Part shown: piece after piece, positions 52,281 through 62,652 of the stretch
Numbering within the stretch: position 1 is the stretch's first letter
Layout of the letters: each line of letters starts with the position of its first letter
Assembly (NCBI RefSeq): GCF_947488715.1
Contig: NZ_CANLAG010000007.1
Location: 124,001-188,000 of the forward strand
DNA length: 64,000 bases
Origin: an uncultured Tateyamaria sp.
GTDB taxonomy: Bacteria > Pseudomonadota > Alphaproteobacteria > Rhodobacterales > Rhodobacteraceae
Direction: 5' to 3'
Made by a program: the position numbers and the translations under genes
The notes under the pieces: model-generated
Databases searched by the model: none
Told to the model about the DNA's origin: nothing
Seen by the model: the letters and a program-made list of their open reading frames with translations, nothing else

Positions 52281-54644
52281 ATGCCAAAAGACGGAGGCAT
52301 CGGCGCCAGCAGCAAGCGGCGCGAGGACGTACGGTTTCTGACCGGCGTTGGAAACTATACCGACGACATCAACCTGCACGGTCAGGCGCATGTGTTTTTC
52401 CTGCGCTCTGACGTTGCACATGGCACGCTCACCAGTGTCGACACCAGCGCGGCCGAGGGCATGCCCGGCGTGGTCAAGGTCTTCACCGGCGCGGATTTCG
52501 AGGGCGTAGGCTCCATTCCCTGCGGCTGGCAGGTGACCGACAAACACGGCGAACCCATGCAGGAACCGGCACACCCCGTGCTGGCGCAGGGCAAGGTCCG
52601 CCATGTGGGCGAACCCATCGCCGCCGTGGTCGCCGAGACCTTGGCCCAGGCCCGTGACGCCGCCGAGGCGATCAACGTGGACATCGCCGAACTGCCCGCC
52701 GTTGTGGACATGAAGGACGCGCTCAAGGACGGCGCGACCAAGGTGCATGACGATTTGAACAATAACCTCTGCTACGACTGGGGCTTTGTTGAGGAAAACA
52801 AGGCCGCCACCGACAAGGCATTCGAGGACGCGGCCCATGTGACCACGCTTGAGTTGATCAACAACCGCCTCGTCGCCAACCCGATGGAGCCGCGCGTGGC
52901 GGTGGGTGACTATGCCCGTGGCACGGATGAGCACACGCTTTATACCACGTCGCAGAACCCGCATGTGATCCGCCTGTTGATGGGTGCGTTTGTTCTGGGC
53001 ATCCCGGAACACAAGCTGCGCGTCGTGGCCCCCGATGTGGGCGGTGGGTTCGGCACCAAGATCTTCCACTATCAAGAGGAAGCGTTCTGTACCTTTGCCG
53101 CCAAGGCCTGCAACCGTCCGGTCAAGTGGACGTCGTCCCGGTCCGAGGCGTTCATCTCGGACGCCCATGGCCGCGACCACGTGACCAAGATCGAGCTGGC
53201 GCTGGATGCGGACAACAACTTTACCGCGCTGCGCACGGAAACCCATGCCAACATGGGTGCCTATCTGTCGACCTTTGCGCCGTCGGTGCCCACATGGCTG
53301 CACGGCACGCTGATGGCCGGGAACTACAAAACCCCGCTGATCTATGTGAACGTCAAGGCCGTGTTCACCAACACGGTGCCGGTCGATGCCTATCGCGGCG
53401 CAGGCCGCCCCGAGGCGACGTTCCAGCTGGAGCGTGTGGTGGACAAGGCCGCGCGCGAATTGGGTGTGGATCCCATCGCGCTGCGTCGTCAGAACTTCAT
53501 CACCGAATTCCCCTATGCCACGCCTGTGGCGGTCGAGTACGACACCGGGGATTATCACGCGACCATGGACAAGCTCGAAGAGATGGGCGATTTCGCCGGT
53601 TTCGCCGCGCGCCGTGCCGAAAGCGAGAAAAACGGCAAGCTGCGCGGGCTGGGCGTGAACTGTTATATTGAGGCCTGCGGCATCGCGCCGTCGAACCTCG
53701 TGGGGCAGTTGGGCGCGCGTGCTGGTTTGTATGAGAGCGCCACCGTGCGGGTGAATGCCACCGGGGGCCTCGTTGTAATGACCGGCTCGCATTCCCACGG
53801 GCAGGGGCACGAGACGTCCTTTGCCCAGGTGGTGGCCGAAATGATCGGCATTGATGAGAGCATGATCGAGATCGTGCACGGCGATACGTCCAAAGTACCC
53901 ATGGGCATGGGCACCTATGGCTCGCGGTCGATTGCGGTCGGCGGCTCGGCCATGGTCCGTGCGACGGAAAAGATCATCAACAAGGCCAAGAAGATCGCGT
54001 CCCATTTGCTCGAAGCATCCGAGACGGATATCGAGCTGAAGGACGGCGCGTTCTCGGTTGCGGGCACGGACAAGTCCGTGGCCTGGGGGGATGTGACCCT
54101 CGCCGCTTACGTGCCGCACAACTATCCGCTCGAGGATATCGAGCCGGGGCTGGAAGAGACGGCCTTCTATGATCCGTCGAATTTCACATACCCGTCAGGG
54201 GCTTACGCCTGTGAAGTTGAAGTGGACCCCGACACCGGCAAGGTCAGTATCGAACGCTTTGCGGCCGCAGATGACTTTGGCAACATCATCAATCCGATGA
54301 TTGTGACGGGTCAGGTCCATGGCGGTCTGGCGCAGGGGATCGGGCAGGCGCTGCTTGAGAACTGTGCCTATGACGAGAACGGCCAGTTGCTGAGCGCGTC
54401 CTACATGGACTATGCGATGCCGCGTGCTGATGACCTGCCGATGTTCTCGGTGGATCATTCCTGCCAGACGCCGTGCACCCACAACCCGCTCGGGGTCAAG
54501 GGCTGCGGCGAGGCCGGTGCCATCGGATCGCCGCCTGCGGTGGTGAATGCGGTGGTCGATGCGCTGCAATCGGCGGGCAAGGATGTGACCCATGTGGACA
54601 TGCCCCTGTCGCCGGATCGTGTCTGGGCGGCGATGAACGGCTGA
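52281..54644 (+). CDS. coxL: Molybdenum hydroxylase large subunit, form II CoxL
   Basis: Molybdopterin-bearing catalytic subunit, 787 residues. The active-site loop reads [12 protein letters not shown], i.e. the form II motif AYRGAGR rather than the AYxCSFR of true form I CO dehydrogenase, and the Mo-proximal Glu is in [15 protein letters not shown]. Conserved [14 protein letters not shown] is present. Its physiological substrate is unknown; CO oxidation is weaker or absent in form II enzymes. Confidence 0.94.
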
Positions 54645-54659
54645 ATGGAAAGGGCAGGA

Positions 54660-54700
54660 CCGGGGGCCAGCCCCCGGACCCCCGGAGTTTATTTGGCAAG
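54660..54700. repeat. Rhodobacteraceae-type GC-rich intergenic repeat
   Basis: CCGGGGGC-CA-GCCCCCGG hairpin followed by ACCCCCGGAGTTTATTTGGC. I recognise this pattern as a common intergenic element in the family; here it separates coxL and coxM. Confidence 0.55.
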
Positions 54701-54738
54701 ATGACAAGGATCATGTTGCCGAGAAGAAGGACCTGAAG

Positions 54739-55527
54739 ATGTATAACTTCGAATTTGCAAAACCCAGTTCAGTTGCGGATGCAGTTGCGGCTCTGGGAGA
54801 CGAGGACGCACAAGCGCTGGGAGGCGGGCAGACCCTGATCCCCACGCTCAAGCAGCGGTTGGCGAGCCCGACAAAGCTGGTGAGCCTCAAGGGCATTTCC
54901 GAGATGCAGGGTGTTTGCACGGGCGACGACGGTGCGCTGTGTATCGGTGGGGCCACGAGCCATGCCACCGTGGCAGCAGAGGCGGGGGCCTACCCGGCGC
55001 TGGCATCCACAGCGGCCCATATCGGGGATCCGGCGGTGCGCAACCGCGGGACCATCGGCGGCAGCCTGGCCAACAACGACCCCTCCGCCTGTTACCCGGC
55101 AGCAGCACTTGGATCAGGGGCCACCATCGTCACAAACAGCCGCGAGATTGCGGCCGACGACTATTTCCAGGGCATGTTCACCACCGCGTTGGATGAGGGC
55201 GAGATCATCACCGAGGTCCGGTTCCCCGTGCCAGAGGCCGCGAACTACCAGAAGTTCGTGCAACCTGCCTCGCGCTTTGCGCTGGTGGGCGTCTTTGTCG
55301 CGAAATATGCTGACGGCGTGCGCGTGGCCATCACCGGGGCCAGCAATGACGGCGTGTTCCGCTGGGCCGAGGCCGAGGCCGCGCTGTCCGCCAACTTCTC
55401 TGCGAATGCCATCGACGGATTGTCTCTGAGCGGCGATGACATGATCAACGATCTGCATGGCACCGGTGCCTACCGCGCGCATCTGTGTGCGGTAATGACC
55501 AAACGGGCGGTTGCTGCTGCCAGCTAA
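54739..55527 (+). CDS. coxM: Molybdenum hydroxylase FAD subunit (CoxM-like)
   Basis: FAD-binding subunit passing electrons out of the complex. The 262-residue protein has the FAD motifs ALGGGQTLIPTLKQRL and HIGDPAVRNRGTIGGSLANNDPSACYPAA, and a CO-deh-type C-terminal domain. It completes the coxS-coxL-coxM set after two maturation genes and ends at a terminator. Confidence 0.95.
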   Translation: MYNFEFAKPSSVADAVAALGDEDAQALGGGQTLIPTLKQRLASPTKLVSLKGISEMQGVCTGDDGALCIGGATSHATVAAEAGAYPALASTAAHIGDPAVRNRGTIGGSLANNDPSACYPAAALGSGATIVTNSREIAADDYFQGMFTTALDEGEIITEVRFPVPEAANYQKFVQPASRFALVGVFVAKYADGVRVAITGASNDGVFRWAEAEAALSANFSANAIDGLSLSGDDMINDLHGTGAYRAHLCAVMTKRAVAAAS

Positions 55528-55547
55528 CATCCCGAACAACGACGACG

Positions 55548-55574
55548 AAGGCCCGGATAATCTCTGGGCCTTTT
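55548..55574 (+). terminator. Terminator after coxM
   Basis: AAGGCCC and GGGCCTT pair around an 11-base loop, followed by TTTT. It ends 20 bases before the RidA-like start, so that gene needs readthrough or its own promoter. Confidence 0.7.
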
Positions 55575-55593
55575 GCATGAAACGGAGACGCAC

Positions 55594-55956
55594 TTGCCAT
55601 CCCCGATCCAACGCTGGCCTGCCCCGGTCGCCGGGCGCAGCTTGACCGTGACCCATGGCGGTCTGGTCTATGCTGTCGCCTATGATCCTGACGCGGCACA
55701 AGGCATCGCAGCACAGACCACAAATGCGCTGGCGTTCCTTGATGCGCGGCTCGCAGAGGCAGGCAGTGACAAATCCCGCCTGCTGCAAGTCACGATCTAC
55801 CTACAGGACATGACAATGAAACCGCAGATGGATGCGGTCTGGACGCCGTGGATCGGCCCCGCTGCACATTGGCCACAGCGGGCGTGCATGGGGGCCGATA
55901 TCGGCGACGGTGGCACCACGTTGATCGAGATCGTCGCCATTGCCGCACAAGCCTAG
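55594..55956 (+). CDS. RidA/YjgF-like protein
   Basis: A 120-residue Rid superfamily member; these deaminate reactive enamine/imine intermediates or act as trimers of unknown role. Motifs ITIYLQDMTMKPQMDAVWTPWIG and GTTLIEIVAIA fit the family, but I do not see the RidA-diagnostic Arg context clearly. The TTG at 55594 is chosen because GGAG lies 6 bases upstream; an in-frame TTG at 55573 lacks this. Confidence 0.8.
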   Translation: MPSPIQRWPAPVAGRSLTVTHGGLVYAVAYDPDAAQGIAAQTTNALAFLDARLAEAGSDKSRLLQVTIYLQDMTMKPQMDAVWTPWIGPAAHWPQRACMGADIGDGGTTLIEIVAIAAQA

Positions 55957-55960
55957 GGGC

Positions 55961-56710
55961 TCAGATCGACCCCGCTTCGACCATGAAATTGTTGGCCGTG
56001 CACATCGCAGCGTCATCCGAGGCCAGCCACAGCACCATCCGCGCAACATAGACGGGGTCAATCAGATCGGGCAGGCACTGGCGCGCGCGGTGCGCCTCCA
56101 GCGCCTCGGGTGTGGCCCACAGCTCCTTTTGCCGGTCCGTCATGATCCAGCCCGGCACGACCGTGTTCACGCGGATGCGGTGATCGCCCAGATCGCGCGC
56201 CATGGTGCGGGTCAGACCGTGCACCGCCGCCTTGGCCGTGGTGTAGGCCGGGAACCCGCCGCCTGCTTCCCACCAGGAGTTTGACCCGAGGTTCACGATT
56301 GATCCACCGCCGGCCTCCATCATGCCCGGTGCCACCGCTTGAATGGCAAAGAACATGTGGCGCAGGTTCGTCTGCATCCGCTCGTCCCAGTATTCCGGCG
56401 TCACCTCGCGCCAGTCATGGCGGTCGTCGCGCGCGGCATTGTTGACCAGAACGGTGAAGGGGCCGACCTCTTCGGCCAGCGTTGCGATGGCGCTGCGCGT
56501 CGCCTCGATGTCGCGCAGATCGCACAGGGCGTGGGCCGCACCTGTGGCCGCGCTCACCTCTGCGGAGGCATCCGCGTCCCGGTCTAGAAATCCGACCCGC
56601 GCACCTTGCTCGGCAAAGGCCTCGACCGTGAGACGCCCAATGCCTGAGGCCCCGCCGGTGATCAGAACAGATGCGCCATCAAGGCTGGGATATTTTGCAA
56701 ATGCGGGCAT
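55961..56710 (-). CDS. SDR family oxidoreductase
   Basis: Short-chain dehydrogenase, 249 residues, substrate unknown. TGGASGIG (18-25), NNAA (90-93), Ser143 and Tyr156-x3-Lys160 are intact, and the C-terminus PVYVARMVLWLASDDAAMCTANNFMVEAG is typical of the glucose/3-oxoacyl-like classical SDRs. It ends 4 bases from the convergent RidA-like stop. Confidence 0.9.
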   Translation of the reverse strand: MPAFAKYPSLDGASVLITGGASGIGRLTVEAFAEQGARVGFLDRDADASAEVSAATGAAHALCDLRDIEATRSAIATLAEEVGPFTVLVNNAARDDRHDWREVTPEYWDERMQTNLRHMFFAIQAVAPGMMEAGGGSIVNLGSNSWWEAGGGFPAYTTAKAAVHGLTRTMARDLGDHRIRVNTVVPGWIMTDRQKELWATPEALEAHRARQCLPDLIDPVYVARMVLWLASDDAAMCTANNFMVEAGSI

Positions 56711-56870
56711 GGGACCTCCTAGGGGCTGTGAGCGGTAACAGGCCCTTACTCTAGCGCGGCAGGGGCGGCGTCAAGGCGGCGCGGACCATCCGTCCCCGGT
56801 CATCACAGACGTGTCATTGTCACAGGCACACAGGCACACAGGCAGTTTTGTCTGCACGTGCTGACTGCGC

Positions 56871-56901
56871 AAAAAGAAGGGGCGCCGCATATGCAACGCC
56901 C
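56871..56901 (-). terminator. Terminator downstream of the infC tail remnant
   Basis: On the minus strand GGGCGTTGC-ATAT-GCGGCGCCC pairs with two G-T wobbles and is followed by a T-rich run (CTTCTTTTT). Probably the original infC terminator. Confidence 0.75.
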
Positions 56902-56926
56902 TGACAAAACTTGCTGCGAAATCGGC

Positions 56927-56975
56927 TTAACCCTTGGCGGGCAGCGGTCCGATGAGCATGACCATCTGACGACCT
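56927..56975 (-). pseudogene. Diverged duplicate of the last 16 codons of infC
   Basis: On the minus strand these bases encode [16 protein letters not shown] and a stop, the same residues as the end of infC at 57066-57116, but six third-codon positions differ (CGT/CGC, CTC/CTG, GGA/GGC, CCG/CCC, GCC/GCT, GGT/GGG). A TGA immediately precedes it, so it is not expressed as protein. Confidence 0.85.
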
Positions 56976-56978
56976 TCT

Positions 56979-56999
56979 CAGCCCCCGCGCTTGCGGGGG
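56979..56999. terminator. Candidate terminator hairpin behind infC
   Basis: GCCCCCGC-GCTT-GCGGGGGC, a perfect 8-bp stem 67-87 bases after the infC stop, with no T-run. Confidence 0.5.
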
Positions 57000-57065
57000 C
57001 GTCACCCGGCAATCGTATTTCGTCAGAAATGCGATGAGAGGGTATCGGGGTCAGATGCGGGCGCG

Positions 57066-57617
57066 TTACCCCTTAGCGGGCAGGGGGCCGATCAGCATGA
57101 CCATCTGGCGACCTTCCATCTTGGGAAAGTTCTCGACCTTGCCATGTTCCTTGGTGTCCTCGGCCACCCGCTCCAGCAGCTCGCGGCCAAGGTTCTGGTG
57201 CGCCATCTCGCGACCGCGGAACCGCAAAGTGACCTTCACCTTGTCGCCGTTTTCCAGGAACTTGAACACGTTCCGCATCTTGACGTCATAGTCATTGGTA
57301 TCTGTGTTGGGCCGAAATTTGACCTCTTTGATCTCAATGACCTTCTGCTTCTTGCGGGCTTCGCTCTCGCGCTTTTGCTGCTCATATTTGAACTTGCCGA
57401 AATCCATGATCTTGCACACGGGCGGATTTGCGTTGGGCGAGATTTCGACCAGGTCCAGACCTGCATCCTCGGCCATGTCCATGGCGCGGGCCGGGGTGAC
57501 AACGCCGACGTTTTCGCCGTCTGCGCCGATCAGGCGGATTTCGGAAGAGCGGATCTTGTCGTTGACGCGCGGGCCGGTGTCACGTTGAGGCGGCGCGTTG
57601 TGTGGTCTGCGAGCGAT
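57066..57617 (-). CDS. infC: Translation initiation factor IF-3 with AUC start
   Basis: Prevents subunit joining and proofreads the start codon. The 183-residue protein has the N-terminal domain [20 protein letters not shown]...[31 protein letters not shown], the basic linker [11 protein letters not shown] and the C-terminal domain ending [12 protein letters not shown]. No ATG or GTG exists at the conserved N-terminus: the first family codon is ATC at 57617 with AAGGA 8 bases upstream, giving IARRPHN. An unusual start codon is the basis of IF-3 self-regulation. The first ATG in frame (57482) would lose 45 conserved residues. Confidence 0.93.
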
Positions 57618-57816
57618 GGTGGTTGTCCTTGATTGTTGCGGAAATTTGAGGCCGGAAGGTAGACCTTGACCGGTGCATCTTCAACCCTCGAAATCGGCCA
57701 TACTGCGCCGAAATCGCGGATTTTCCCCCTTGCACCTTTCTTTGTGGACGCGCATCTGACAGCCGGGAACTCAAGACGCATGTTGTGCGTTAGTCCAAAA
57801 TCAAAGGGGACGTATC

Positions 57817-58749
57817 ATGAAGAATCTGATCTGGATAATTGTTGCGGTTGTGATCGTGGGGGGCGGGTATCTGCTTTTCTCCGGCAAAACACCCCAAGAG
57901 GCTGTGACCGAGGCCGCTGAGGCCGTGAATGCGCCCGCCGCTCTGGAAAGCGCAAGCGACGCCGTGGGTGAGGCCGTTGAAGCAACCGAAGGCGCTGTTG
58001 AAGGTGCAGTTGAGGCGGCCACGGATGCGGCTGAGACGGCCGTAGAGGCCGTGACCGAAACTGCCGAAGAGGCCGTGGACGCTGCGGGTGATGCGGTTGA
58101 TACGGCGGTTGATGCAGCTACGGACGCAGCACAATCGCTGGCCGAGACCGGTGGTGACGCAGTGGACGCGGCAACTGACGCAGCATCGGATGCTGTGGAC
58201 GCAGTGGCCGACACCGCGACCGATGCAGTTGATGCTGTGACAGACACCGCTGATGCGGCTGCTGACACTGCGACAGACGCTGTTGAAGCGACCACAGACG
58301 CCGCTGCGGACGCCGCTGAGGCCGCGACAGAGACAGCCACTGATGCAGCCGAAGCCGTGACCGACACAGCGACGGACGCTGTGGAGGCCACAACAGACGC
58401 TGCTACGGACGCGACCGAAGCGGCAACGGATGCCGCCGAAGGCGCAACAGAGGCCGCAACTGATGCTGCCACTGAGACAGCTACGGAAACAGCGACTGAA
58501 ACAGCCACCGAGGCCGTGGACGAAGCCGCAGACGTGGCTGCCGAAGGCACCGAAGCCGCCAGCACCGGCATCGCCGACCTGCTGACTGTGGACGGTTTCA
58601 ACTTTGACAAGGTCGCCGAGATGATCGACGGCTCTGACATCGGTGCGTTGCAGAAAACCACGCTCAAGGCCGGCCTCCAGCAGGCAAAGGACAACCCTGA
58701 ACTGCTCAAAGGTCTGCTCGATCAGGTCAAAGAGGCGATGGGTCTCTGA
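57817..58749 (+). CDS. Membrane-anchored acidic hendecad-repeat protein
   Basis: A 310-residue protein I cannot assign. An N-terminal membrane helix (about 4-22) is followed by Ala/Thr/Asp/Glu sequence with strict 11-residue periodicity from about 45 to 231: about 16 units of the type AATDAAETAVE, TATDAVDAVTD, AAEAVTDTATD, with acids at positions 3/4, 7 and 11. Residues 25-264 contain no Lys, Arg, His, Cys, Met or aromatic residue. A separate C-terminal domain of about 60 residues (ADLLTVDGFNFDKVAEMIDG...) follows. AGGGGAC-like ribosome site lies upstream, and a terminator follows. Confidence 0.85.
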   Translation: MKNLIWIIVAVVIVGGGYLLFSGKTPQEAVTEAAEAVNAPAALESASDAVGEAVEATEGAVEGAVEAATDAAETAVEAVTETAEEAVDAAGDAVDTAVDAATDAAQSLAETGGDAVDAATDAASDAVDAVADTATDAVDAVTDTADAAADTATDAVEATTDAAADAAEAATETATDAAEAVTDTATDAVEATTDAATDATEAATDAAEGATEAATDAATETATETATETATEAVDEAADVAAEGTEAASTGIADLLTVDGFNFDKVAEMIDGSDIGALQKTTLKAGLQQAKDNPELLKGLLDQVKEAMGL

Positions 58750-58790
58750 TCCGTCACCGGGCGCACAACGCGCCCACCAACACGCAAAAG

Positions 58791-58826
58791 AAAACCGCGC
58801 CCCGGAGTGACCGGGGCGCGGTTTTT
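58791..58826. terminator. Bidirectional terminator
   Basis: AAAACCGCGCCCCGG-AGTGA-CCGGGGCGCGGTTTT, 15-bp perfect stem with TTTT at both ends, serving the hendecad-repeat gene and the convergent reductase gene. Confidence 0.93.
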
Positions 58827-58852
58827 TCTTCGCTCCACATGTCGCAAACGCG

Positions 58853-59704
58853 TCAGTCGAGGAACGCTTTCTCCACCACGTAATGCGCAGGCTTGGAATT
58901 GGCGCCTTCTTCGAGGCCGTAGTCCTCGAACATGTCCTTGAGCTCCAGGTTGAACGCCAGATTGCCACAGATCATCGCGCGGTCCGTGTCAGGGTTCAAT
59001 GGCGGCACACCCAGATCACTGAAAGCCTCGCCCGACTTCATCAGATCGGTGATGCGGCCCATCTTTGGGCTCTCTTCGCGGGTGGTGGTGGGGTAGTACT
59101 TGATCTTCTTCCAGAACCCGTCGCCGATCAGCTCGTTCAACAGCTCGTCCGACTTCAGATCCTCGATCAGCTTGGCACCGTATTCCAGCTCGCCCGCCTC
59201 GCGGCAGGTGTGGGTGATGATGACCTCGTCGTAATCCTCATAAGTCTGTGGCTCGCGCAAGAGCGACGCAAAAGGCGCAAACCCGGTGCCAGTGGCAAAG
59301 AACCACAACCGTTTGCCCGGCAACAGCGCATCATGCACCAAGGTGCCAACGGGCTTGGGGCGCAGGATGATCTCTTCGCCCACCTTGATGTGCTGCAACC
59401 GCGAGGTCAGCGGGCCGTCGGGCACCTTGATCGAATAGAACTCTAACTCTTCGTCCCAGCTGGGCGAGGCGATGGAATAGGCGCGCAGCAGCGGCTTTTG
59501 CTTGCCGGTTTCGGGGTGCGGTTCGCCCATCAGGCCGATCATCACAAATTCGCCCGACCGGAACCGCAACGACGCAGGCCGCGTCACGCGGAAGGAAAAC
59601 AGACGGTCGGTCCAGTGCGTGACCTGCGTCACGGTCTGGGCATCGGGCAGGGCGGGTGTCGCCTTCACGGCGCTGGCTTGGTTCACGGGTGTTTGCTCGG
59701 TCAT
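58853..59704 (-). CDS. fpr: Ferredoxin--NADP+ reductase
   Basis: FAD enzyme exchanging electrons between NADPH and ferredoxin or flavodoxin. The 283-residue protein has the FAD-binding segment RAYSIASPSWDEELEFYSIKVPDGPLTSRL, the NADP site ATGTGFAPFASLLREP and a C-terminal family element MICGNLAFNLELKDMFEDYG. The N-terminus (about 1-25) is a Thr/Ala-rich extension. It lies downstream of the cysteine operon and might reduce the ferredoxin used by its sulfite reductase (inference). Confidence 0.94.
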   Translation of the reverse strand: MTEQTPVNQASAVKATPALPDAQTVTQVTHWTDRLFSFRVTRPASLRFRSGEFVMIGLMGEPHPETGKQKPLLRAYSIASPSWDEELEFYSIKVPDGPLTSRLQHIKVGEEIILRPKPVGTLVHDALLPGKRLWFFATGTGFAPFASLLREPQTYEDYDEVIITHTCREAGELEYGAKLIEDLKSDELLNELIGDGFWKKIKYYPTTTREESPKMGRITDLMKSGEAFSDLGVPPLNPDTDRAMICGNLAFNLELKDMFEDYGLEEGANSKPAHYVVEKAFLD

Positions 59705-59768
59705 GGGTGTGTCAACGCAGGTTTACACCTGCGCCTCTCGATTTGGGAAGGGTTTTGTAACGGGATAA

Positions 59769-59788
59769 GCGCGCGAATGGTCGCGCGC
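59769..59788. terminator. Hairpin between DUF934 gene and fpr
   Basis: GCGCGCGA-ATGG-TCGCGCGC, 8-bp perfect stem on the minus-strand side between the end of the cys operon and the fpr promoter region; no T-run. Confidence 0.45.
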
Positions 59789-59821
59789 CTTGATCTGTAT
59801 CAGGTGCGCAGGCGCACCACC

Positions 59822-60232
59822 TTAGTGATTGGACGCGCCACGCAGCCGCGACTGATAGTCATGGGCCTGCCAGTCTGCGCGGAAAACCCACTGGTCCTCG
59901 GGTTGACGTGCCGCGAGGGCCTGGCTGATCTCGACCTCGTCGAAACCGGCGCGGCGGGCCATGGCATATTGATCAGAGATCACGTGGCCCCTTGCGCGCA
60001 AACGCCCCTGATAGCCGCGCAGGCGCAACATCCGGGCGATGGTAAACCCGCGCCCGTCGGCAAAGCTGGGAAAATCCACGCGAATGATGTCCGCGTTCAG
60101 CGGGATCTGATCCGGGTCCGCATCACTGGGCACATCCAGGGCCGCAGCATCATTGGCCGCCTCGCCCAGAGGGGCATAGCCGCCGTCCCAAGTGTCCGGG
60201 CCAAAGCCCTGATCTGTCACAACAATTGTCAT
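59822..60232 (-). CDS. DUF934 family protein (sulfite-reduction associated)
   Basis: A 136-residue protein of the DUF934 family, function unknown, almost always next to cysH or cysI. Typical motif DGRGFTIARMLRLRGYQGRLRARGHVISDQYAMARRAGFDEVEI. Start 60232 overlaps the cysH stop (ATGA), so it ends the sulfate-assimilation operon. Confidence 0.9.
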   Translation of the reverse strand: MTIVVTDQGFGPDTWDGGYAPLGEAANDAAALDVPSDADPDQIPLNADIIRVDFPSFADGRGFTIARMLRLRGYQGRLRARGHVISDQYAMARRAGFDEVEISQALAARQPEDQWVFRADWQAHDYQSRLRGASNH

Positions 60233-60981
60233 TTGCTTTCTCCTACGCGCACCATTTTGCCGTTCACAAAATGGATGCCACATTCGTCCTTGTTCGTATC
60301 GCGCCAGCGTCCGGCGCGGGGGTCTTCGCCTTCAGCCACCGGTGAGGTGCAGGGCGCGCAGCCGATGCTGGGATAGCCCTGCGCCACCAGCGGATGCCGG
60401 GGCAGGCGGTTCTCGTCCATGTAATCGCGCACATCCTGCGGCGCCCAGCGGGCCAGCGGGTTGACCTTGATCCGGCCCGTGTCGTCTTCAACCTCAAAGA
60501 ACTCGAGGCGCGCGCGTGTGCCGGATTGGTAGCGTTTGCGCCCCGTCATCCAGCCGCCGTAAGGCGCAAGTGCGCGTTGCAGCGGTACGGTCTTGCGCAG
60601 CGCACAGCACGCATCGGTATCCCGTTGGTGTAATGTGCCGTCCGGGTCATGCGCTGCAATGTCATCCGCACGGATCACGGTCACGTTTTCCAGCCGCAGC
60701 CGTTCAGCCACGTCCTGCTGGTACACCAGCGTCTCGGCAAAGAGCATTTCGGTGTCGATAAAGATCACCGGCACGTCCCGCTTTACCATCGCCGCCAGAT
60801 GCAGCAGCACCACCGATTCCGCCCCAAAGCTGGACACCAATGCGATGTCCGGCACGGCCTCAAAGGCCGCGCGCAGCACATCCGTGGCGCCGTGATGGGT
60901 CAGTTTCGCGTTCAGCGCGCTGACCATCACCTGCGCCTCGGGCTGTGTTGGGCCGTGCATATTTGGGGAACAATGAAGCAT
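60229..60981 (-). CDS. cysH: Adenylylsulfate reductase, assimilatory, [4Fe-4S] type
   Basis: Reduces activated sulfate to sulfite. The 250-residue protein has the PP-loop-like SSFGAESVVLLHL, and both Cys pairs that hold a [4Fe-4S] cluster in APS reductases: CC in DACCALRKT and CxxC in IGCAPCTSP. This marks an APS rather than PAPS reductase. It is 6 bases downstream of cysI. The gene is coupled by ATGA to DUF934. Confidence 0.93.
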   Translation of the reverse strand: MLHCSPNMHGPTQPEAQVMVSALNAKLTHHGATDVLRAAFEAVPDIALVSSFGAESVVLLHLAAMVKRDVPVIFIDTEMLFAETLVYQQDVAERLRLENVTVIRADDIAAHDPDGTLHQRDTDACCALRKTVPLQRALAPYGGWMTGRKRYQSGTRARLEFFEVEDDTGRIKVNPLARWAPQDVRDYMDENRLPRHPLVAQGYPSIGCAPCTSPVAEGEDPRAGRWRDTNKDECGIHFVNGKMVRVGESK

Positions 60982-60987
60982 CAGAGC

Positions 60988-62652
60988 CTATTCCGCGGCG
61001 ACCTTGGTTTCGGGGTAGAGGGCCGCCTTGAAGGGGGCGAGGCCCGTGCGGCGATACGTGTCGATGAACGCCTCGTCTACGTCGCTGCGCAGGTCGAGAT
61101 AGGTGTCCACGATCCGTTCCACCGCAGGCACGATGTCATCCGCCGAGAAGCCGGGGCCGACGCGGTCGCCCACTTTGGCGGCTTCGGTGTGATCGCCGCC
61201 CAGGGTGATCTGGTAGTTTTCGACGCCCGCGCGGTCGAGGCCCAGGATCCCGATGTGGCCCACATGGTGGTGGCCACAGGCGTTGATGCAGCCCGAGATC
61301 TTGATCTTGAGGTTGCCGATCTCGTGCTCGCGCTTGAGGTCGTCAAAGGCGGTGGCGATCTCTTGGGCGATCGGGATCGAGCGGGCCGTGGCCAGCGCGC
61401 AATAGTCCATGCCGGGGCAGGCGATGATGTCGCTGATCAAGCCGATATTGGCGGTGGCGAGGTCCGCATCCTTGAGGCGCGCGTGCAGGGCGGGCAGATC
61501 GGACACATGCACATGGGGCAGGATCACGTTCTGTTCGTGGCTGATGCGCAATTCGTCGTGGCCGTAGTCTTGCGCCAGATCGGCCATCAGGCGCATCTGG
61601 TCCGCGCTGGCGTCACCGGGTGTGGCCCCGTGTTTCTTGAGCGAGATCGACACGATCTTGTATCCCGGCGCCTTGTGGGCGGTCAGGTTGGTGTCGGCCC
61701 AGCTGCGGAAAACGGGGTCGTTGTGATAGGCGTCCTTGAACGGTGCCTCGGACGCGGTCTTGAACGCGGGTGCGGCGAAGTGGTCTTCGATCTCGCGCAG
61801 CATCTGGACATCCACGCCCGAGAAGGTCTTGCGGGTTTCCACAAACCGTTCTTCGACCAGGCGGCGGATTTCGTCGATGCCGTGCTCGTGCACGGTGATC
61901 TTGATGCGCGCCTTGTACTTGTTGTCGCGGCGGCCGATCTGGTTCCAGACGGACACAACGGCTTCGAGATATGGCAGCAGGTCTGCTTCGGGCAGGAAGT
62001 CGGTGATGACCTTGCCGATCATCGGCGTCCGGCCCAGGCCACCACCCACGATGATCTCGTAGCCGCGTTGCCCGTCACGGGTTACCATACGGATGCCGAT
62101 GTCATGCGCCTTGGTCACGGCGCGGTCGTTGGGCGAGCCGGTGATGGCGATCTTGAACTTGCGGGGCATGAACTGGAACTCGGGGTGGTCGGTGGACCAC
62201 TGGCGCATCAGCTCGGCCACGGGGCGCGGGTCGGCAATCTCGTCCGCTGCGGCCCCTGCGAAATGGTCGGCGGTCACGTTGCGGATCGTGTTGCCAGAGG
62301 TCTGGATGGCGTGCATGCCCACCTCTGCCAGCGCGTCCAGCATGTCGGGCACGTCCTTCAACTCTGGCCAGTTGTACTGGATGTTCTGGCGCGTGGTGAA
62401 GTGGCCATAACCCTTGTCCCAGCGCTCAGCGATCTCGGCCAGCTTGCGCATCTTGGCGCTGTCCAGCGTGCCATAAGGGATGGCCACGCGCAGCATATAG
62501 GCGTGCAGTTGCAGATAGAGACCGTTCATCAGGCGCAGCGGCTTGAACTCGTCCTCGGTCAGCGCACCGGAGATGCGACGCTCAACCTGGGCGCGGAACT
62601 GGCGGTTGCGTTCCGCCAGAAAGGCGGTGTCGAATTCGGAATAGCTATACAT
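60988..62652 (-). CDS. cysI: Ferredoxin-type sulfite reductase, hemoprotein (CysI/NirA-like)
   Basis: Siroheme/[4Fe-4S] enzyme reducing sulfite (or nitrite). The 554-residue protein has duplicated ferredoxin-nitrite/sulfite reductase domains, substrate-binding TTRQNIQYNWPEL, and the cluster-binding CPGMDYC (C-x5-C) and GCINACGHH (C-x3-C). There is no CysJ flavoprotein gene nearby, so a ferredoxin likely provides electrons. Start overlaps the DUF2849 stop. Confidence 0.94.
   Translation of the reverse strand: MYSYSEFDTAFLAERNRQFRAQVERRISGALTEDEFKPLRLMNGLYLQLHAYMLRVAIPYGTLDSAKMRKLAEIAERWDKGYGHFTTRQNIQYNWPELKDVPDMLDALAEVGMHAIQTSGNTIRNVTADHFAGAAADEIADPRPVAELMRQWSTDHPEFQFMPRKFKIAITGSPNDRAVTKAHDIGIRMVTRDGQRGYEIIVGGGLGRTPMIGKVITDFLPEADLLPYLEAVVSVWNQIGRRDNKYKARIKITVHEHGIDEIRRLVEERFVETRKTFSGVDVQMLREIEDHFAAPAFKTASEAPFKDAYHNDPVFRSWADTNLTAHKAPGYKIVSISLKKHGATPGDASADQMRLMADLAQDYGHDELRISHEQNVILPHVHVSDLPALHARLKDADLATANIGLISDIIACPGMDYCALATARSIPIAQEIATAFDDLKREHEIGNLKIKISGCINACGHHHVGHIGILGLDRAGVENYQITLGGDHTEAAKVGDRVGPGFSADDIVPAVERIVDTYLDLRSDVDEAFIDTYRRTGLAPFKAALYPETKVAAE

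Follow-up and report, generated by a model that had tools for sequence, protein, structure and literature searches.

The gene at 57817-58749 of the window, which is the whole stretch of 64,000 nucleotides that was analysed, encodes a protein with a hydrophobic N-terminus, a long acidic repeat and a short C-terminal domain. The question raised by this locus is whether the repeat is a structural element maintained for its helical shape or a product of acidic composition, and to which kind of known protein this arrangement belongs.

The gene, its neighbours and the upstream region

The features of the locus are as follows.

57817-58749, plus strand: gene of the putative acidic hendecad stalk protein, ATG start, 310 residues, computed pI 4.05
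57826-57882, plus strand: hydrophobic helix of the N-terminus, residues 4-22, containing a GGY motif, from hydropathy and alignment columns
57892-58554, plus strand: acidic Ala/Thr/Val array, residues 26-246, with a period of 11/3
57925-57981, plus strand: membrane-proximal box, residues 37-55, VNAPAALESASDAVGEAVE, partially conserved in homologues
57982-58509, plus strand: the 16 rows of the original prediction, within the acidic array
58573-58746, plus strand: C-terminal domain, residues 253-310, the conserved part of the family and a three-helix bundle in the model
57730-57757, plus strand: conserved promoter-like element TTG N19 nCATnT, from the upstream alignment
58791-58825, no strand assigned: GC-rich hairpin flanked by T runs, a possible terminator shared with the convergent gene
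57066-57617, minus strand: infC, divergent neighbour with an apparent ATC start (Pfam IF3_N and IF3_C), context only
58853-59704, minus strand: NAD/FAD oxidoreductase (Pfam), convergent neighbour, context only

Arginine and histidine are absent from the entire 310 residues, and six of the eight lysines are located in the C-terminal part. Residues 4-22 are hydrophobic by hydropathy, and the AlphaFold model has a helix at residues 2-22, in a part of low confidence. An open reading frame of 392 residues (57790-58968, minus strand), rich in Cys, Ser and Gly, lies antisense to the whole array and seems to be a side effect of the codon pattern in the acidic repeat. A further partial DNA match, on G000:C5 of the genome, was rejected as an unrelated reading frame.

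The divergent neighbour infC gives full matches to IF3_N and IF3_C if it is read from the ATC codon at 57617-57615. ATC is a rare start codon of the kind known for infC elsewhere. The convergent neighbour matched NAD_binding_1 in Pfam at E 2.2e-4 and FAD_binding_6 slightly below its cut-off, and we take it to be of the ferredoxin-NADP reductase type. With infC divergent and the reductase gene convergent, the acidic protein gene thus stands between the two. Two terminator-like sites were found, against 1.7 expected from shuffles.

The region between infC and the acidic protein gene (57618-57816) contains two conserved blocks in 16 aligned sequences, CTTCAA and CCCCTTG with GCGCATCTG. The pattern of TTG, 17-21 bases and nCATnT was present in 39 of 77 upstream regions, compared to a shuffled mean of 3.8 (largest 8), for a pattern written after viewing the alignment of 16 of the 77 sequences. 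The pair is placed 76-109 bases before the start in 37 of the 39. A generic sigma-70 scan gave no promoter at 57730-57757. A conserved TTG is reported for Rhodobacter RpoH promoters in extracts of PMC3441632. A TTG would, however, fit housekeeping promoters as well. A CenR-like motif, TNAC-N7-TGA, which simplifies sites tabulated in a portion of PMC9275681, was rejected, since it had 19 matches in the window where 18.7 were expected, and none between infC and the acidic protein gene.

Period of the acidic array and its upkeep

The acidic pattern of 16 rows of 11 residues proposed originally was reproduced column by column. When residues 56-231 are placed in rows of 11, an acid occupies columns 7 and 11 in 14 of 16 rows each, and column 3 or 4 in all 16. 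The autocorrelation of acids within residues 26-246 was 0.645 at lag 11 (z 9.5; 2000 composition-keeping shuffles), and the expected period-11 signal is therefore far above composition-matched shuffles. The acid periodogram of the same residues peaked at 3.68 residues with a power of 34.4, while the largest maximum in 500 shuffles was 10.5. The acids form a single stripe whose phase drifts slowly but holds between about residue 36 and residue 205; it slips afterwards in a TATE stretch. Lys, Arg and His are absent over 240 positions (residues 25-264).

A helical wheel of 74 homologues placed the acids at 0 degrees, Ala at 159 and Val at -154. The hydropathy moment had its peak of 1.03 at 98.2 degrees per residue and was 0.09 at the heptad angle; a left-handed heptad coiled coil was rejected, as the moment is absent at 102.9 degrees. 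A hendecad rule for right-handed coiled coils has been described for rotary ATPase stalks (sections of PMC6131620). If position a is assigned to column 2 or 9, A/V/I/L/M, for the most part Ala, account for 77-80% of the a-d-e-h positions, and acids are absent from them. The 11/3 period and a hydrophobic a-d-e-h pattern are thus both present with Ala counted as hydrophobic, and Val and Leu alone are a minority of the core. Judged from the sequence, the rod is probably a right-handed coiled coil. Column 6, which belongs to the core in one of the two registers, is Thr in 6 of 16 rows. Type I antifreeze protein has one Thr stripe every 11 residues. A Thr stripe of this type was rejected for the acidic array (Thr R 0.25 in the window protein and 0.23 in homologues).

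Recent copies of a row would be expected to share codons. In the window gene, 29% of the lag-11 positions with the same residue also had the same codon, compared to 35% for shuffled synonyms (z -1.3). In 75 homologues lag-11 codon identity had a median z of 0.25, with z above 3 in 2 of 75. Fresh tandem DNA duplication was therefore rejected as the source of the period, which is held at the protein level, presumably by selection.

Recent DNA duplications were also identified in some homologues, 18 events in 106 genes. This set combines 76 and 30 loci, partly the same gene, and events were counted without regard to common descent. The duplicated units keep the helix phase in 17 of the 18 events, with lengths of 7, 11, 15, 22, 29, 33 or 40 residues, and in 10 of the 11 strongest. 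Random unit lengths would be in phase in 3 of 11 cases, so that 17 of 18 would arise with a chance of about 3e-9 and 10 of 11 with one of about 2e-5, although slippage between existing repeats would favour in-phase units anyway. Codon-shuffled genes gave 9 of 100 and 35 of 530 at the lower duplication threshold, and 8 of 530 at score 60. The sole out-of-phase duplication, in L029 (G021), is a 17-residue DNA-level repeat in a Pro-containing array without the period.

Homologues and the C-terminal domain

At E 0.001, searches with the C-terminal domain gave matches in 29 of 61 genomes, among them 19 of the 20 from Tateyamaria. A profile of 15 C-terminal domains matched 241 of 394 Rhodobacteraceae genomes (240 of 393 genera). 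In a sample of 289 genomes from the class the same profile matched four, each of them from the Rhodobacteraceae, in a listing that does not give the number of Rhodobacteraceae among the 289. The position of infC, upstream and divergent, is conserved in 77 of 80 loci; two of the exceptions begin at a contig end (L043, L099) and one has a mis-called start (L073). The reductase gene is downstream and convergent in 72 of 80 loci, upstream in 2 and not found in 6, and both neighbours are in place in 69 of 80. The acidic protein is one real, widespread Rhodobacteraceae family. No paper on it was recognised in the literature searched, in which the protein has no name to search by, nor was the family recognised in the extracts of PMC10470522 and PMC9275681 that deal with Rhodobacter envelope proteins. 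By these searches the family is undescribed. One contig (G022 C1) carries two domain matches, L025 and L032, that start 614 bases apart; one of the proteins has a long K/E-containing array and the other a 51-residue acidic array.

Homologues were compared at 76 of the 80 loci, after L043, L047, L073 and L099 were dropped for starts that were cut by a contig end or mis-called; the helical wheel used 74 of these and the codon test 75. Array length ranged from 62 to 360 residues with a median of 189, and further loci, taken with a cruder cut, had arrays of 51-361 residues. The acid fraction of the array had a median of 0.26 and a range of 0.13-0.41. Lys, Arg and His made up 2% or less of the array in 69 of 76 homologues and 8.6% at most, so the original claim of an array without basic residues describes the 240 positions of the window protein and not every homologue. 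In 60 of 76 homologues the periodogram peak fell within 3.58-3.74 and exceeded 99% of shuffles. The 16 failures include four Yoonia loci (L078, L108, L113, L118), two borderline cases (L079, L107) and L085, whose peak of 3.67 was under its shuffles; others are Ala-rich arrays with AAEE-type or K-containing runs. Thus, the helix phase is not required in every lineage.

The expectation that homologues would keep both the period and the length of the array was borne out for the period, in the 60 of 76, and not for the length. At 0.15 nm per residue, helical arrays of 62-360 residues would be about 9-54 nm long. A strut of fixed, periplasm-spanning length, as first suggested from the window protein, is thus unsupported. 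At about 9 nm, the shortest of the arrays would extend only in the direction of the peptidoglycan, and a span to the outer membrane would thus be no general requirement.

Conservation was also seen outside the array. Residue 2 is Lys or Arg in 68 of the 74 homologues with a letter at this position, the GGY motif is common at the N-terminus, Y18 is present in 67 of 76 homologues, and a VxAPEALE box recurs near the membrane. In 71 C-terminal domains one Phe (F261) and one Pro (P294) are invariant, at F21 and P54 of the aligned piece. Overall, the hendecad period, the acidic charge, the N-terminal hydrophobic helix and the separate conserved C-terminal domain of the original prediction were all supported.

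AlphaFold2 modelled the C-terminal domain alone with a mean pLDDT of 81, and in the full protein residues 261-310 reached 92-96. The array was modelled mostly as helix, with block-mean pLDDT of 25-76 and breaks at residues 37-39, 110-113 and 148-169. Given this low pLDDT and these breaks, the model counts against claiming a continuous rod. Pfam has no family for the C-terminal domain of the window protein. XPC-binding was matched by 3 of 71 C-terminal domains (best E 0.0018), the window's own domain being unmatched. A profile search of solved chains for the C-terminal domain reached STI1 at E 0.58 and gave one match below 0.001, a designed protein over 17 positions. Foldseek with the model gave no match at E < 1 (best 1.9). 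VIA-align gave middling Z values of up to 6.0 over 49 residues with small helical bundles, for example the ends of paramyxovirus P-proteins. The modelled domain thus appears to be without a clear structural relative; none is claimed, and absence from such lists proves nothing.

A sequence search of the PDB identified V-type ATP synthase subunit E (best E 0.007) as the sole natural chains among the matches listed. A designed protein (E 0.0009) ranked above it and most of the matches listed were designed helical proteins, which indicates a composition signal. Several other library matches were rejected. NCBIfam lipo_Ag473 scored 20 bits against a cut-off of 100 and a PHROG tail tape measure had E 2.2e-5, each with its best stretch wholly or mainly in the array. 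Membership of Phasin_2 (PF09361) was rejected as well, since its 28 bits (cut-off 24.9) came from three stretches of which the best, residues 66-153, is in the low-complexity array.

Proposed role and alternative explanations

We propose, with a probability of about 0.5, that the protein is a stalk anchored in the inner membrane, in which a helical acidic rod carries a three-helix C-terminal adaptor and serves as a spacer or presenter of adjustable length. Its hydropathy and the positive residue 2 suggest that the N-terminal helix anchors in the cytoplasmic membrane with the rest of the protein in the periplasm. The array would be one long alpha helix with a single acid stripe facing outward. 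Two copies may pair through this helix's Ala/Val face into a right-handed hendecad coiled coil; the helical period was computed and the pairing is assumed. The rod would present the adaptor to a partner, whether this is located at the peptidoglycan, at the outer membrane or in a periplasmic complex, and seawater salt and divalent cations would screen its charge of about -60.

Several results count for such a stalk: the period, its upkeep at the protein level, the a-d-e-h pattern, the in-phase duplications, the subunit E match, the modelled end domain and the synteny. In addition, the arrays differ in length by a factor of about six, whereas the end domains are kept, as is the period in most homologues, which points to an adjustable spacer, as in TolA domain II. 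According to extracts of PMC3477136, the tolA repeat number of E. coli varies from 8 to 16 among 234 isolates, and domain II tolerates deletion until it is too short to span the periplasm (parts of PMC12204202). The small core, mostly Ala with Val and Thr, counts against the stalk, as self-association may be weak and is opposed by charge. A more specific version, in which the acid-only right-handed coiled coil is stable only under screening at the salt and divalent cation levels of seawater, appears improbable. If it were true, the rod would stiffen or collapse with salinity and so set the reach of the C-terminal adaptor.

Four other explanations were weighed against the stalk. First, the protein may be a monomeric, largely flexible polyanion tethered to the membrane, a periplasmic charged brush or cation buffer for which composition matters and helix phase does not. 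This explanation is doubtful. The low pLDDT of the array counts in its favour, as do the wide range of array lengths, the acid fraction of 0.13-0.41 and the near absence of basic residues (2% or less in 69 of 76). However, a brush needs no 11/3 phase, and the period is present in 60 of 76 homologues despite randomised synonymous codons. The duplications keep the phase as well, with the reservation that slippage between existing repeats favours such units.

Secondly, the array could be a giant, weakly amphipathic 3-11 helix that lies along the surface of a membrane or granule, like the helices of perilipin 4, apolipoproteins and phasins; we consider this unlikely. The helices of perilipin 4, alpha-synuclein and apolipoproteins attach to lipid surfaces and contain basic and acidic residues alike, and phasins are soluble granule proteins without a transmembrane segment. 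The acidic array shares with the former group its 11-residue repeats and weak amphipathicity, and perilipin 4 likewise is without bulky hydrophobic residues in the sections of PMC8064757 that describe it. Phasin_2 was matched above its cut-off and apolipoprotein models below theirs. However, the best stretches of both lie in the array, and neither is among the family matches of the C-terminal domain alignment. The acidic protein also differs from perilipin-type helices in its acid-only charge and its predicted membrane anchor, and from phasins in that it and its homologues have an N-terminal hydrophobic helix by hydropathy. A polar face that is almost purely acidic would, moreover, be unfavourable on anionic bacterial membranes.

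Third, an Ala-rich linker may have drifted to an acid-rich composition in adaptation to salt, and would then do no more than tether the end domain, without a specific function as a rod. Acidity does depend on lineage, and some homologues are K/E-mixed without the 11/3 period. Drift of this kind is nevertheless a rather remote explanation, as phase coherence over about 170 residues of the window protein together with the a-d-e-h pattern is not expected from composition alone.

Lastly, it is very improbable that the protein is a force transducer of the TolA/TonB type that has another C-terminal domain and is powered by a TolQR/ExbBD motor: the three-part layout is shared, and proposed transducers with an unrelated C-terminal domain are described in parts of PMC12204202, but the Ser-His-Leu-Ser motif is absent from the transmembrane helix, no His occurs in the first 24 residues of the 76 homologues, no motor gene was recognised among the open reading frames of 54000-62500 (by eye, with four neighbours compared to Pfam), and a separate tolQRA-tolB-pal gene order is present elsewhere in the genome.

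Compared with known systems, the original statement that no family has this layout proves too strong. The peripheral stalks of rotary ATPases face the cytoplasm and belong to ATPase complexes. In sections of PMC6131620, F-ATPase b and the E-G stalks of A-/V-ATPases are described as hendecad right-handed coiled coils, and b is membrane-anchored. The similarity of the acidic protein to subunit E (E 0.007) is confined to the array. TolA and TonB have an N-terminal transmembrane helix, a long helical or Pro-rich periplasmic region and a small C-terminal domain, as here, and TolA carries the SHLS motor motif in its transmembrane helix (both from parts of PMC12204202). The rod of the acidic protein differs from theirs in being almost purely acidic and 11/3-periodic. 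The C-terminal domain of TolA contains beta strands and binds through strand addition, whereas that of the acidic protein has only helices in the model. The gene of TolA lies beside tolQ, tolR, tolB and pal, and that of the acidic protein instead between infC and the reductase gene. For these reasons (no SHLS, no motor gene recognised nearby, a modelled helical end domain and a separate tol operon), the acidic protein was rejected as TolA.

A membrane-anchored helical periplasmic spacer is thus a kind already known, of which this family would be a variant, and what is unusual is the acid-only, phase-kept hendecad rod. The gene is widespread, adjoins infC in a largely marine family and, in the window protein, encodes a conserved domain without a Pfam family. 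Its homologues provide a natural series of helical rods of 62-360 residues of one design, with which the need for length, charge and helix phase can be tested.

The TolA C-terminal family PF06519 had no match in the acidic protein or anywhere in the genome, which indicates that this Pfam model does not reach the lineage. PF13103 also matched nothing in the genome, which says little because the genome's own TolA candidate has no Pfam match either. The tolQRA-tolB-pal order is on contig C3, with TolB assigned by Pfam and the other names read from open reading frames. The TolA candidate on this contig (L120:2587-3636) has a TTG start and a Pro/Glu-rich acidic middle, and this middle suggests a second acidic, probably periplasmic spacer in the genome.
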